64,000 bases of DNA from Cycloclasticus pugetii PS-1 (GTDB lineage Bacteria; Pseudomonadota; Gammaproteobacteria; Methylococcales; Cycloclasticaceae): assembly GCF_000384415.1 (NCBI RefSeq), contig NZ_ARVU01000001.1, positions 1,302,001 to 1,366,000 of the forward strand, written 5' to 3'. Shown in pieces: positions 16,183 through 63,239 of the stretch. The translations under genes were made by a program, and so were the position numbers. The notes beneath the pieces are model-generated. The model did not search any database and was not told the origin of the DNA. It worked only from the letters and a program-made list of their open reading frames with translations. Position 1 is the stretch's first letter. Every line of letters begins with the position of its first letter.

Positions 16183-16211
16183 TAGAGTTTGAATTTGAAA
16201 CTGTCTATAAT
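16183..16211 (+). promoter_or_regulatory. Probable sigma-70 promoter of the tRNA-Leu locus
   Basis: A consensus -10 box TATAAT lies at 16206-16211, 15 bases before the first tRNA-like sequence. The best -35 at 17-bp spacing is the weak TAGAGT (16183-16188). The distance to the tRNA-Leu 5' half suits a tRNA promoter; it could still drive the intron-bearing gene 170 bases downstream. Confidence 0.45.
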
Positions 16212-16225
16212 GCCCACACTTATTT

Positions 16226-16265
16226 GCCGGGGTGGCGGAACTGGTAGACGCGCCGGATTCAAAAT
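16226..16265 (+). pseudogene. Truncated tRNA-Leu (5' half only)
   Basis: From GCCGGGG (acceptor strand) through the D arm (GGCGGAACTGGTAGACGC) and anticodon stem to the loop TTCAAAA, this reads as the first 40 bases of a tRNA-Leu with a CAA anticodon. After 16265 the expected anticodon-stem partner (TCCGG), variable arm, T arm and acceptor 3' strand are missing, so it cannot fold as a tRNA. It differs from the complete tRNA-Leu that follows in acceptor and anticodon stems, so it is not a simple duplication of it. Confidence 0.75.
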
Positions 16266-16285
16266 TCTCAAGCGATTTTGTATCC
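16255..16285. repeat. Inverted repeat at the break in the truncated tRNA-Leu
   Basis: GGATTCAAAAT (16255-16265) and ATTTTGTATCC (16275-16285) are inverted copies with one mismatch, separated by nine bases. The left arm is the tRNA anticodon stem-loop strand. This could be a core site for a tyrosine recombinase or simply a hairpin formed when the tRNA was broken. The bases from here to 16378 match nothing I recognise. Confidence 0.6.
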
Positions 16286-16378
16286 CAAGTGGAAATTAAG
16301 CTTTTCTGTGGTGTACCTGTGAAAGGATTTGCGGGTAGTATAAAAAAGGACTGTCGGCAGACAATAAATGTATTTAGT

Positions 16379-16746
16379 GCCAGAGTGGTGAAATTGGTAG
16401 ACACAGGGGATAAGCGAAAGCCAGTGTCTTTAAAAAACTGAGTCCCCCTCGTGAGCAATCGCGAGTGAGAAAAACTGGATGAATTGCTGGAAACTCTAAG
16501 TCTAGAAATAGATACGACAATCAGCAGCCAAGCCGTCTGAGACGGAAGGTTCAACGACTACCTGAGCTGTTGCGAGATGGCTTAATAACAGGAAGTAGCT
16601 TGGATTAGAACCCAAGTGAAACAGCGTCCAGCCCCTAAGTATATTAGGGTGATGATATAGTCTGGCTAGCATCGAAAGATGGTAGGTTAATGTCAAAATC
16701 CCCCGCCTTCACGGGTGTGCCGGTTCGAGTCCGGCCTCTGGTACCA
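16379..16746 (+). tRNA. tRNA-Leu(CAA), split by a group I intron
   Basis: The 5' exon is 16379-16411 and the 3' exon 16693-16746. Joined, they give an 87-base class II tRNA. The acceptor GCCAGAG pairs with CTCTGGT (G1.U72 as in E. coli tRNA-Leu). The anticodon stem GGGGA/TCCCC encloses the loop TTCAAAA (anticodon CAA). A long variable arm, the T arm GCCGG-TTCGAGT-CCGGC, discriminator A and an encoded CCA complete it. The interruption falls between U32 and U33 of the anticodon loop. This is the last host-like gene before the ICE. Confidence 0.9.
16412..16692 (+). ncRNA. Group I intron in the tRNA-Leu anticodon loop
   Basis: The last exon bases GGGGAT (16406-16411) pair with an internal guide GTCCCC (16442-16447), placing the required G.U pair at the 5' splice site. 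The intron ends in G (16692). Conserved core elements appear in order: P-like GGAAACTCTAAG (16489-16500), Q-like GCAGCCAAGCC (16524-16534), R-like TTCAACGACTACC (about 16550-16562) and S-like GATATAGTC (16654-16662), with GACTA/TAGTC as the P7 pairing. The 281-base length and arrangement resemble small tRNA introns of the Azoarcus/cyanobacterial (IC3) kind. There is no open reading frame, hence no homing endonuclease. I infer self-splicing. Confidence 0.88.
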
Positions 16747-16930
16747 TCTTCCCCTTCACATAAACGCAACGGATTATTTCCTACTCCAGATCCTAGATAA
16801 AGCCTTGGGATACACTGGGGATACAAACAGGAGTAATTCCCGTGATCGTCGGGTAATGATAGGTAATCAACCTAACGATATACAGCAGGCTCAAAATGCA
16901 ACAATTTGCATAATCAGTAAACTCTTTATC

Positions 16931-60138: not shown

Positions 60139-62877
60139 CTACTGTCTCGACGCCATGTTTTCTGCTATAGCAAATACTGCCTCCAGCTCAGAACAGTGCT
60201 GGGATCTCATAATCTCAGCTCGCTGTTGCTTCTCGTGTTTTTCAGTCATGGCGAGTGCCAAAGCTAACGGGGGTGGTACGTTTCTGAACAGGCATTGCAG
60301 ATTATCCGAAAGCACAACGCCCTCGGTATAATTTCCAGGCTCCTTTCTTGCTGCCCGCAACATGCCTTTTTGCTCCTCGGAGAGGTCTTTAAAGCGCGAG
60401 ATTTGCTCAATCTCTTCCTTGGGACAGACCATAGCAATCCACCATTCGAACATGCTGAGTAGCTTTTTGGCGGCATCGGGAAAGTCTTCCAGATTCTGAG
60501 TGGCCAGCCATAACCAGGCACCTAACTTGCGCCACATTTTCACGATCTTAACCAGGAAGATAGCTAACAAGGGGTTGGTGGTAATTAGGTGAGCCTCATC
60601 GCCAAGGACAAAAGTCGGACGATGATCATATTGCTCACGCTCTACCACACCGTTAATCTGATTCATCAAGCCCATAAACCCTAAGGCCAACTGATCTTCA
60701 TAGCCTTCGTTAGCTAACAGGCCCATTTCCATAATAGTGACATCGGCCTCTGGCCAGGCTTTGCCCACACGGTTAAAGAAGTGCCCGGCAGTACCGGAAC
60801 AATACAACGCCATAGCATCGGCCATGTCTCTGGCACGCTCTTGGCGTTTCGGCGTACTGGACTCATCTGCCGCCAACTTGTTCAACGCATTAACCACATC
60901 CTCGGTTAATACGATTTCTCGACTGCCAGCCGCTTGCTTTTCCTCCGCAGCTAGGATGATCGCTCTACGAATAGTTAGGCGATCCGCCCGCGTCATCACG
61001 GCCTCTTCTTTGCTGTCACCGCCGGTAATCATAATGCGGGCCTTCAATTCCATTTCACCCAGCAGATCCCGTTCTTCGTCATCATCACTGCTATCCGAGG
61101 CCTCTAATGATGCCTCTTCGTAAGCTGATGGCTCTTCATCAAACGAAGCTTGCTGTGCCCGTTCTCTTTTGAGCATTTCATAGGCGTCAGCAAAGGGTGG
61201 TAGGCTAACGTCTTCCTTGGGGTGCAGCGTTACCTGATTAACGCTCAGCCCGAAATATCGACAATAATCACCCAGCAGTTTGAACGACCCGCCCTTTTCA
61301 ATAATGTAAATTCGCGCGCCGTATATCGCTGCGACCTGTAACAGGATGTACACCATTAATGCCGACTTACCAGAACCAGGAGGCCCCAGAACCAACCCAA
61401 AGGCATTCTTAGCCCGGTCCAGTTTGTTCAGCGGATCGAAGGTCAAAGGCTCACCGCCTCGATTAAAGAAAACCAGCCCCGGATGCCCGGTTCCCCGACT
61501 GCGACCGTAGAACGGTAATAACTTGGCCAGATCACTGGAGAACACCAGACGACTCTTTTTGTTGACCTTCTCCCTTTTCGGTTCATAGTTCATTGGTAAC
61601 TGGCGAATATAGGTATCCAGCGGTAACAACTCATCTTTCTCTCGAATAGGATGCAAACCATTAGCCAGTAGCAACGCGTTGACTTCATTGGTCCTCTTTT
61701 GCAGATCAGCGAGGGAATCCCCACGGGTGAACAGCGTTATAACGGTGGGCAACAGGTAGTCCCCGTGGGACATCCATTTCAAGGCTTCCTTGGCATCCTG
61801 CTCAGCCGCCATCGCTTCTGCCGTTTCACCCTTTGCTGAATTGAGCACTTGCACCACATGATTTTCGACGAGGTCTTGAGGCTGAAGTGTCACGCATAGG
61901 GAAAGAATGCTGCCCTCTGGCAACTTATCGAACAAGGCATACAGGTTATCGCCAACCTGTCGCTCACCGGTAAAGTGACCGGGCAAGGGCTTCCTTCGCA
62001 ATGCATCCACAGTGATCGCTCTATGTGGAAAATCATCGAAGTACCAAACACCGTGCCCGCCATCGGATGAGGGCTGAGAAAGAAACAATAGGTCGGACAG
62101 ATCGTGGCTAAATGCCCGTTCCTGCTTTTCGGGAAGTGACATTAGCTCAGTGAGCCTATCCAAATCCCCTTCTGCCACCTCAGCCTTGGGATTAAACCAG
62201 CGCAACAGCCAAGCATAAAGATCGTTATCATCACATCGCCGAATACCAATGCCTGTCGCTGCCATCTGTGTGACAAAGCGTTCCGCGACCTGGTTTATCT
62301 CGGCAACGGGATCTATATGTTCGTTATCGTTTAACTCTCTCCGGCGATACAAAAATACCCGCACTCGACGCACCTTTCCTCGCCAGCTACCGCCCGTCAC
62401 CGTGCTGTCTTCAAATAACCCGGTGCTCAGTGTCATACGCTTGAAATGCCTTTGCATACGGCCAACGAAATTACTTGCCAACAACCGATGCTCTGGGGTT
62501 TGCCTGCAATGGCTCTCTGCGTAGGTATTCAAAGACTGTGATAATGCTGACAGTGAATCTTCGTCCGAGACAAAACACTGCAAGACGAAAGGATTATCAT
62601 GTGCAGGAATTGTGTGGTTGATGCAAGTTTGTATATTGGCCTGCACTTCCTCCAAGAATTTGCTTGATCGTGCTTCAGTTGAAACACCAGTAATTTCAAA
62701 CATCGCTGCAGCACTATAACTATCTTCTAGGGTAAACGTCTCGGTCGCCTCCTCGTAGTCTACCCACGGTAACCAATCGCTTAACGACGCGGGGTGACGA
62801 TAGAGTGTATCCACATCAGCATCCGTAATCACTGAATCACGGTTTGATTGCTTGCCTATTAATTGCTTATCTGCCAT
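60139..62877 (-). CDS. Conjugative transfer ATPase, VirB4/TraC-like (TIGR03744, PFL_4706 family)
   Basis: About 912 residues from ATG 62877. The Walker A motif is GPPGSGKSALMVYIL (about residue 470) and the Walker B region is RPTFVLGDEAHLITTNPLLA, with ATQNLEDFPDAAKKLL beyond it. The N-terminal half has no hydrophobic span and matches the VirB4 N-domain pattern. This is the motor of the type IV secretion channel for ICE transfer. An insert of acidic residues (EASDSSDDDEERD) sits in the ATPase domain. The lipoprotein gene lies immediately upstream, and the next transfer gene is displaced by 11.4 kb of cargo. Confidence 0.93.
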   Translation of the reverse strand: MADKQLIGKQSNRDSVITDADVDTLYRHPASLSDWLPWVDYEEATETFTLEDSYSAAAMFEITGVSTEARSSKFLEEVQANIQTCINHTIPAHDNPFVLQCFVSDEDSLSALSQSLNTYAESHCRQTPEHRLLASNFVGRMQRHFKRMTLSTGLFEDSTVTGGSWRGKVRRVRVFLYRRRELNDNEHIDPVAEINQVAERFVTQMAATGIGIRRCDDNDLYAWLLRWFNPKAEVAEGDLDRLTELMSLPEKQERAFSHDLSDLLFLSQPSSDGGHGVWYFDDFPHRAITVDALRRKPLPGHFTGERQVGDNLYALFDKLPEGSILSLCVTLQPQDLVENHVVQVLNSAKGETAEAMAAEQDAKEALKWMSHGDYLLPTVITLFTRGDSLADLQKRTNEVNALLLANGLHPIREKDELLPLDTYIRQLPMNYEPKREKVNKKSRLVFSSDLAKLLPFYGRSRGTGHPGLVFFNRGGEPLTFDPLNKLDRAKNAFGLVLGPPGSGKSALMVYILLQVAAIYGARIYIIEKGGSFKLLGDYCRYFGLSVNQVTLHPKEDVSLPPFADAYEMLKRERAQQASFDEEPSAYEEASLEASDSSDDDEERDLLGEMELKARIMITGGDSKEEAVMTRADRLTIRRAIILAAEEKQAAGSREIVLTEDVVNALNKLAADESSTPKRQERARDMADAMALYCSGTAGHFFNRVGKAWPEADVTIMEMGLLANEGYEDQLALGFMGLMNQINGVVEREQYDHRPTFVLGDEAHLITTNPLLAIFLVKIVKMWRKLGAWLWLATQNLEDFPDAAKKLLSMFEWWIAMVCPKEEIEQISRFKDLSEEQKGMLRAARKEPGNYTEGVVLSDNLQCLFRNVPPPLALALAMTEKHEKQQRAEIMRSQHCSELEAVFAIAENMASRQ

Positions 62878-62879
62878 TT

Positions 62880-63239
62880 CTATTTCCACCCTGCCTGTTC
62901 GCCCGGAGCCACAATATGATCCTGGGTGTAAAGCCGGAAAAAGGTGCTATATCCCGGTACCGGGTGGCCTGCAGCGGTCAGGTGCCTGAAAACATACATT
63001 CGCAGCGTCGGATTAGGTAACCACTGAAACTCTTCTTGTTCAGTATTGCCCTCTTCGACGGCGGCACGTTGCCGCCGCACCAGCTGTTCATCGTTAGCAT
63101 TGTGGAATTTTTCATCGTGAATGCTCTTCATTGAGGGCATATCCGTGCCAAATACTTTGGCCTTGGAAGTGGTGCAACCAGACAGTAGCCCAGCATTAAT
63201 CCAAATCGCGATTAATATCAGAATCATTTTTCGCATAGC
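62880..63239 (-). CDS. Conjugative transfer lipoprotein (TIGR03751 family)
   Basis: About 119 residues from ATG 63239 (GGAG before it). Lipoprotein signal MRKMILILIAIWINAGLLSGC is followed by a soluble part (FGTDMPSMKSIHDEKFHN, FQWLPNPTLRMYVFRHLTAAGHPVPGYSTFFRLYTQDHI). The position, with the VirB4-like ATPase downstream and PFL_4705 upstream, and the PNPTLxMYVFPHL-like segment fit TIGR03751. It is probably the VirB7-type outer-membrane component. Confidence 0.88.
   Translation of the reverse strand, partial: AMRKMILILIAIWINAGLLSGCTTSKAKVFGTDMPSMKSIHDEKFHNANDEQLVRRQRAAVEEGNTEQEEFQWLPNPTLRMYVFRHLTAAGHPVPGYSTFFRLYTQDHIVAPGEQAGWK

Follow-up and report, generated by a model that had tools for sequence, protein, structure and literature searches.

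What is a tRNA-Leu(CAA) gene split by a group I intron doing beside an ICE in Cycloclasticus pugetii PS-1, and does it belong to the host or to the element? The original prediction read positions 16379-16746 of the window (the whole 64,000-nucleotide stretch of DNA analysed here; genome coordinate = window coordinate + 1302000) as a gammaproteobacterial tRNA-Leu(CAA) gene interrupted between U32 and U33, with an ICE nearby. The analysis below takes up the intron, the origin of the gene that carries it and the role the intron might play.

A group I intron between U32 and U33 of tRNA-Leu(CAA)

The precursor consists of a 33-nt exon 1, a 281-nt insert and a 54-nt exon 2 (Table 1). The Rfam Intron_gpI model (RF00028) matches window positions 16418-16684 over its full length (model 1-253) with 79.4 bits (E = 1.6e-18; gathering score 50 bits), and this is the only match in an RF00028 search of the 2.38-Mb genome. 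ARAGORN run over the window without introns reports no tRNA; with introns allowed it returns a tRNA-Leu(CAA) whose anticodon loop is interrupted by 281 nt of intron, and removal of the intron leaves an 87-mer that folds into a complete class II tRNA. A U.G pair of P1 sits at the 5' splice site, the terminal intron base is G (16692) and exon 2 begins UCAAAAU. The insertion is placed between U32 and U33 because only that position fits all three features. RNAfold of the precursor gives z = -3.8 relative to shuffles. With the covariance cut-off, the P1 U.G pair, the P3/P7 core and the terminal G all met, the insert is a group I intron; that it is self-splicing is inferred from sequence alone. The original prediction therefore held for the intron and its exact coordinates, the class II tRNA formed by the joined exons, the P1 wobble pair and terminal G, the CAA isoacceptor, the insertion site and the gammaproteobacterial host.

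The P7.1 and P7.2 helices, a mark of group IA introns, are present as CCUG/CAGG with inner helix at 187-204 and CUUGG/CCAAG at 221-238 (precursor numbering), both placed after the 5' strand of P7 and before the 3' strand of P3. At the nucleotide level the intron comes closest to those of marine phages that neighbour ribonucleotide reductase (nrdA) and DNA polymerase genes; it shows ~72-80% nucleotide identity to Vibrio phage introns across one half to two thirds of its length. Hence, the intron is likely phage-like, with group IA features, unlike the cyanobacterial tRNA-Leu(UAA) introns. The known IC3-type intron of cyanobacterial and plastid tRNA-Leu(UAA) was considered as a candidate and rejected on the CAA anticodon, the insertion between positions 32 and 33 and P7.1/P7.2; the predicted difference in insertion site from those introns was also upheld.

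A comparison of three copies of the intron, two of which are 96% identical, shows that all 84 drawn pairs are kept, with two pairs doubly compensated (in P2 and P8) and four showing consistent one-sided changes (in P2 and P7.1). The three-sequence shuffle control is weak, as 51/500 shuffles reach the observed value; slid controls pair only 34-41%. The intron of Cycloclasticus and that of Paraglaciecola are separated by one indel and 13 differing positions; the exons show no difference among the elements of Cycloclasticus, Porticoccus and Paraglaciecola (100% identity). The searches revealed no further RNA element within the intron or close to it.

A host tRNA gene severed by an ICE that carries a replacement

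The original prediction missed a severed 5' half of the host tRNA-Leu(CAA) gene, which ends 113 nt upstream of the intron-split gene. This half terminates in GGATTCAAAAT, after which the sequence is foreign. The 3' half lies 72 kb away at genome 1390649-1390704, beyond a tyrosine integrase, and opens with the same 11 bp; when joined, the halves are identical at 85/85 positions to the intact tRNA-Leu(CAA) gene of 12 congeners. The split is found in two Cycloclasticus genomes, PS-1 and NAT157 (G009), and the intron-bearing tRNA of the latter is the same save one substitution. tRNA genes are among the commonest bacterial integration targets. Here, the tyrosine integrase of the ICE has inserted the element into the tRNA-Leu(CAA) gene of the host, at the anticodon loop, and so cut that gene in two. 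Since the shared core is only 11 bp, neither ICE end rebuilds the host tRNA; with the halves left apart, the short-core criterion of tRNA-dependent integration is met.

Instead, a complete replacement tRNA-Leu(CAA) is carried inside the ICE attachment site, on the same strand and downstream of the host promoter region. The prediction that the gene stands beside an ICE was thus only partly right. The alternative of a host gene adjoining the ICE was rejected: the tRNA is positioned between the attL core and the outer arm repeats, and accompanies the ICE from one genus to another. Table 1 lists the coordinates of the locus.

Table 1 Features of the ICE, its attachment site and the intron-split tRNA-Leu(CAA) gene (window coordinates unless stated)
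Feature	Position	Strand	Remark
TATAAT, -10-like box of host tRNA-Leu(CAA) gene	16206-16211	+	CTGTCTATAATG or near copy in 14/14 Cycloclasticus loci
Stranded host tRNA-Leu(CAA) 5' half, nt 1-40, left of attL	16226-16265	+	100% identical to nt 1-40 of intact gene in 12 congeners
attL core GGATTCAAAAT, 11 bp	16255-16265	+	Twin in attR, genome 1390649-1390659, outside window
ICE body	16266-64000, on past window to attR at genome 1390649		
Putative arm-type repeat TGGGATACA	16279-16287	-	21 nt from start of anticodon-loop core; same place in 7/8 elements
Exon 1, ICE-borne replacement tRNA-Leu(CAA)	16379-16411	+	
P1	16406-16447	+	Exon GGGGAU (16406-16411) with internal guide GUCCCC (16442-16447)
Group I intron, 281 nt	16412-16692	+	P7.1/P7.2 present (group IA-like)
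P3	16475-16631	+	16475-16481 with 16625-16631; encloses P4-P6, P7 5' strand, P7.1, P7.2
P7	16556-16662	+	GACUA (16556-16560) with UAGUC (16658-16662)
Exon 2, ICE-borne replacement tRNA-Leu(CAA)	16693-16746	+	Ends ACCA
Putative tandem arm-type repeats TGGGATACA/GGGATACA	16806-16825	+	~11 nt apart; same pair adjoins attR
ICE transfer proteins TIGR03755, TIGR03756, TIGR03757	45904-48742	-	
ICE conjugative transfer ATPase	60139-62889	-	TIGR03744, 1155 bits
ICE integrase gene, tyrosine recombinase	genome 1389070-1390488	-	160 nt inside attR

Repeats of the TGGGATACA/TGTATCCCA type flank the cores of related elements at near-fixed distances, and these can be inferred to resemble arm-type integrase sites. 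On the attL side of those elements, a repeat at 21 nt is followed by the tandem pair beyond the replacement tRNA; on the attR side, the tandem pair and an inverted copy occur at -183, -172 and -149. Because the tandem pair also adjoins attR, the replacement tRNA lies inside attP, between the core and the outer arms.

In Cycloclasticus genomes whose flank was viewed, a conserved upstream region precedes tRNA-Leu(CAA), beside queA. No full promoter was found around the -10-like box by a simple sigma-70 scan. The box still precedes the severed half. A transcript starting at the host promoter could thus plausibly extend into the replacement, and we infer that the box likely drives the latter too.

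The ICE is 72 kb long and is identified as PFGI-1-type on its characteristic transfer proteins alone, with TIGR03744, TIGR03752, TIGR03755, TIGR03756, TIGR03757 and TIGR03759 all above curated cut-off, as in PFGI-1/clc-type ICEs. Known ICEs of this type usually rebuild the tRNA at one end, whereas the Cycloclasticus ICE replaces it. A second tyrosine recombinase gene (PF12834/PF12835; L041:3092-4117) is also located within the ICE, ~4 kb from the main integrase. The cargo at window 16931-40000 is rich in metal resistance genes, encoding an RND efflux pump, a copper-type P-ATPase, MerR regulators, an HMA protein and a multicopper oxidase-like protein. Just past attR (L041:8880-8950), a short stretch resembling the start of an integrase, MAKPRKVNGKWRVEFRRSS, comes to an abrupt end, perhaps a trace of an earlier element that used the same tRNA.

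A second intact tRNA-Leu(CAA) gene would have counted against the original prediction, and was sought. The tRNA family search, with ARAGORN applied to its hits, yields only the Leu anticodons UAA, UAG and GAG. Neither this combination nor a genome-wide D-arm/CAA-anticodon pattern recovers a second intact copy, the pattern matching the severed host half and one non-tRNA site; this candidate was accordingly rejected. The family search missed some expected tRNAs and is thus incomplete, hence the absence rests mainly on the pattern search. The replacement is likely the sole complete tRNA-Leu(CAA) found in the genome, although dependence of the integrants on it is untested. The arrangement of the locus accounts for the failure of a standard tRNA search to report any tRNA-Leu(CAA) here.

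Two further observations concern other loci. A 3' fragment of tRNA-Leu(UAA) at genome 1172520-1172572 (L187) lies ~7 kb from the intact gene at 1179837-1179924 (L188), with both on the same strand; this points to a further integrated element near that gene. The tmRNA gene (L042:8358-8733; L039) is followed by an integrase-like reading-frame start, likely marking a further island at ssrA.

Related elements with and without the intron

Related integrases were identified on eight contigs in named genomes and on two more from draws of families and orders, with pairwise identities of 61.9-100%. No integrase relatives were found in plasmids and viral contigs, nor was element sequence found in viral contigs. 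Wherever the attR flank is available, the host tRNA-Leu(CAA) 3' half starting TTCAAAATCC abuts the integrase. The attL could be recovered for eight elements, all of which hold the 5' half, the spacer and a replacement tRNA. The intron is present in four (two from Cycloclasticus, one each from Porticoccus and Paraglaciecola) and absent from the other four (Haliea G020, G021 and G024, and G450). A ninth attL, from a Pseudomonadales MAG, is cut inside the intron by the contig end, and those of G137 and G023 fall outside the set owing to contig breaks and masked bases. Independent cases are few: Haliea G020 and G021 belong to a single lineage, and the elements with the intron are similar to one another at 96-100%. 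Given that the integrases diverge to 61.9% identity, replacement tRNAs probably became part of these elements before the intron attained its present spread. The integrase tree is compatible with a single gain of the intron followed by loss in Haliea, with two gains, or with a swap.

The two groups differ in the anticodon stem. In Porticoccus, the replacement anticodon arm without its intron would match the host attB at 17/17 nt, and exon 1 has no mismatch to the host half (33/33). Relative to the host stem GGGGA/UCCCC, each intron-free replacement carries a compensated change, namely GGAGA/UCUCC in the three Haliea elements and AGGGA/UCCCU in G450. The latter keeps GGGATTCAAAATCCC and differs from the host attB solely at stem pair 27-43, far from the crossover; any protection of the G450 replacement is doubtful for this reason. 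In Cycloclasticus, the replacement outer stem GGGGA is already unlike the host CCGGA, a point that weighs against the shield proposed below.

The attL regions of Porticoccus and Paraglaciecola (L131, L132) present a separate feature: the stranded host 5' half ends GGGGAU, the intron's own 5' splice-site pairing segment. Consequently, splicing in these elements could also join exon 2 straight to the stranded host half, with which the guide pairs at -10.4 kcal/mol; the pairing is weak (-3.9) in Cycloclasticus. In the Cellvibrionales MAG G023, ambiguous bases left of the core near attR (L137/L099) retain scattered letters of the tRNA 5' half, which would fit an assembly made from a mixture of cells, some carrying the ICE and some lacking it.

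A possible shield against the element's own integrase

We propose that a transcript from the host promoter would read through the severed 5' half into the replacement, that the intron would splice itself out of the precursor, and that the mature replacement tRNA would take over UUG decoding. Less surely, the intron may persist because both the 11-bp core and the 7-bp loop TTCAAAA are divided by it in the DNA. After splicing, the replacement would include GGATTCAAAAT, the core shared by attL and attR, and the intron interrupts it in the DNA; without the intron, the integrase would presumably find this core a second time inside the same attP. RNA splicing restores the tRNA, and would thus reconcile gene function with immunity to the ICE's own integrase. 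On balance we favour, with moderate confidence, a replacement-tRNA ICE whose splicing intron shields the replacement from its own integrase; the shield is inferred and there are no RNA or recombination data. A bolder reading, for which we consider the case evenly poised, is that a self-splicing intron serves as a mobile element's immunity device for its own attachment site, with the intron-free relatives reaching the same end by compensated stem changes, an inference drawn from few cases. The existence of intron-free elements counts against the shield in that the intron is not required. Furthermore, group I introns often sit in anticodon loops, and the position of the intron alone is therefore no evidence of a role.

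The closest competitor, which we rate well below the shield but do not exclude, retains the same anatomy and regards the intron as a neutral or selfish passenger of phage type that entered by reverse splicing or recombination and has no protective role. In its favour, bacterial group I introns are known to reside in anticodon loops (PMC8450103; PMC3984707), the nearest nucleotide relatives are the phage introns by ribonucleotide reductase and DNA polymerase genes, and related ICEs manage without one. Against it, presence of the intron tracks the unaltered GGGGA/UCCCC core and absence an altered core, the intron is retained with compensatory changes in ICEs of several families, and its 281 nt leave no room for the usual homing endonuclease by which it might spread.

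Two further possibilities appear very unlikely. Splicing might act as a regulatory switch, tying tRNA supply to the integration state or to host physiology such as the GTP level. Only in the integrated state does the host promoter region lie ahead of the replacement, splicing of group I introns depends on a guanosine cofactor, and the Porticoccus and Paraglaciecola guide pairs equally well with the stranded host half, allowing alternative splicing; but the intron and its surroundings yielded no further RNA element that could support such a switch, and promoter capture serves the intron-free relatives equally well. Alternatively, the gene could be a decaying pseudogene, with tRNA-Leu(UAA) reading all UUG codons. 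The latter tRNA is present and can in principle wobble to UUG, and tRNA-Leu(CAA) is dispensable in E. coli. It is hard to square such decay with exons that are invariant across three genera, with intron drift that keeps the drawn pairs, and with a host gene that does not vary over 85 nt in 12 congeners.

Returning to the replacement-tRNA ICE with a shielding intron, the arrangement is an unusual combination of known kinds, tRNA-dependent integration and an intron at the integrase core; no literature joining group I introns with ICE attachment sites was found among the papers searched. Actinobacteriophages such as Fionnbharth, and Gaia at tRNA-Leu-CAA, display tRNA-dependent lysogeny (Guerrero-Bustamante and Hatfull 2024, PMC10865867). 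The integration logic is the same, one of those phages even using tRNA-Leu-CAA, but the element here is a conjugative ICE of Gammaproteobacteria. The phage tRNA is encoded elsewhere with its own promoter, whereas the ICE tRNA is inside attP behind the host promoter region and is split at the core by a group I intron, none being described in the relevant sections of that paper. Archaeal tRNA introns have been proposed to protect tRNA genes from integration (Randau and Soll 2008, as reported in PMC4090602). They likewise disrupt an integrase target within a tRNA gene, but as a host defence with protein-spliced introns; here, an intron of self-splicing type would guard the element's tRNA from its own integrase. 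Among bacterial tRNA introns, those of tRNA-Leu(UAA), tRNA-fMet and tRNA-Ile2 (PMC8450103 for the latter two) share the self-splicing type and the anticodon loop, and differ from this ICE-borne, group IA-like intron with P7.1/P7.2 and phage relatives, inserted at U32/U33 of a CAA isoacceptor. All phage group I introns known in 2014 were in protein-coding genes (PMC3984707), and the relatives from marine phages, found in the nrdA and DNA polymerase regions of Vibrio phages, are located within protein genes or next to them, in contrast to the tRNA gene occupied here.

Integrase, target and intron-split substitute stand side by side in one small locus, with the intron-free relatives as natural controls; the shield idea is testable because these provide both the parts and the controls. 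The finding extends tRNA-dependent integration from phages to conjugative elements. If the proposed role of the intron is true, the ICE splits a host tRNA gene and supplies a substitute that would lie beyond the reach of its own integrase.
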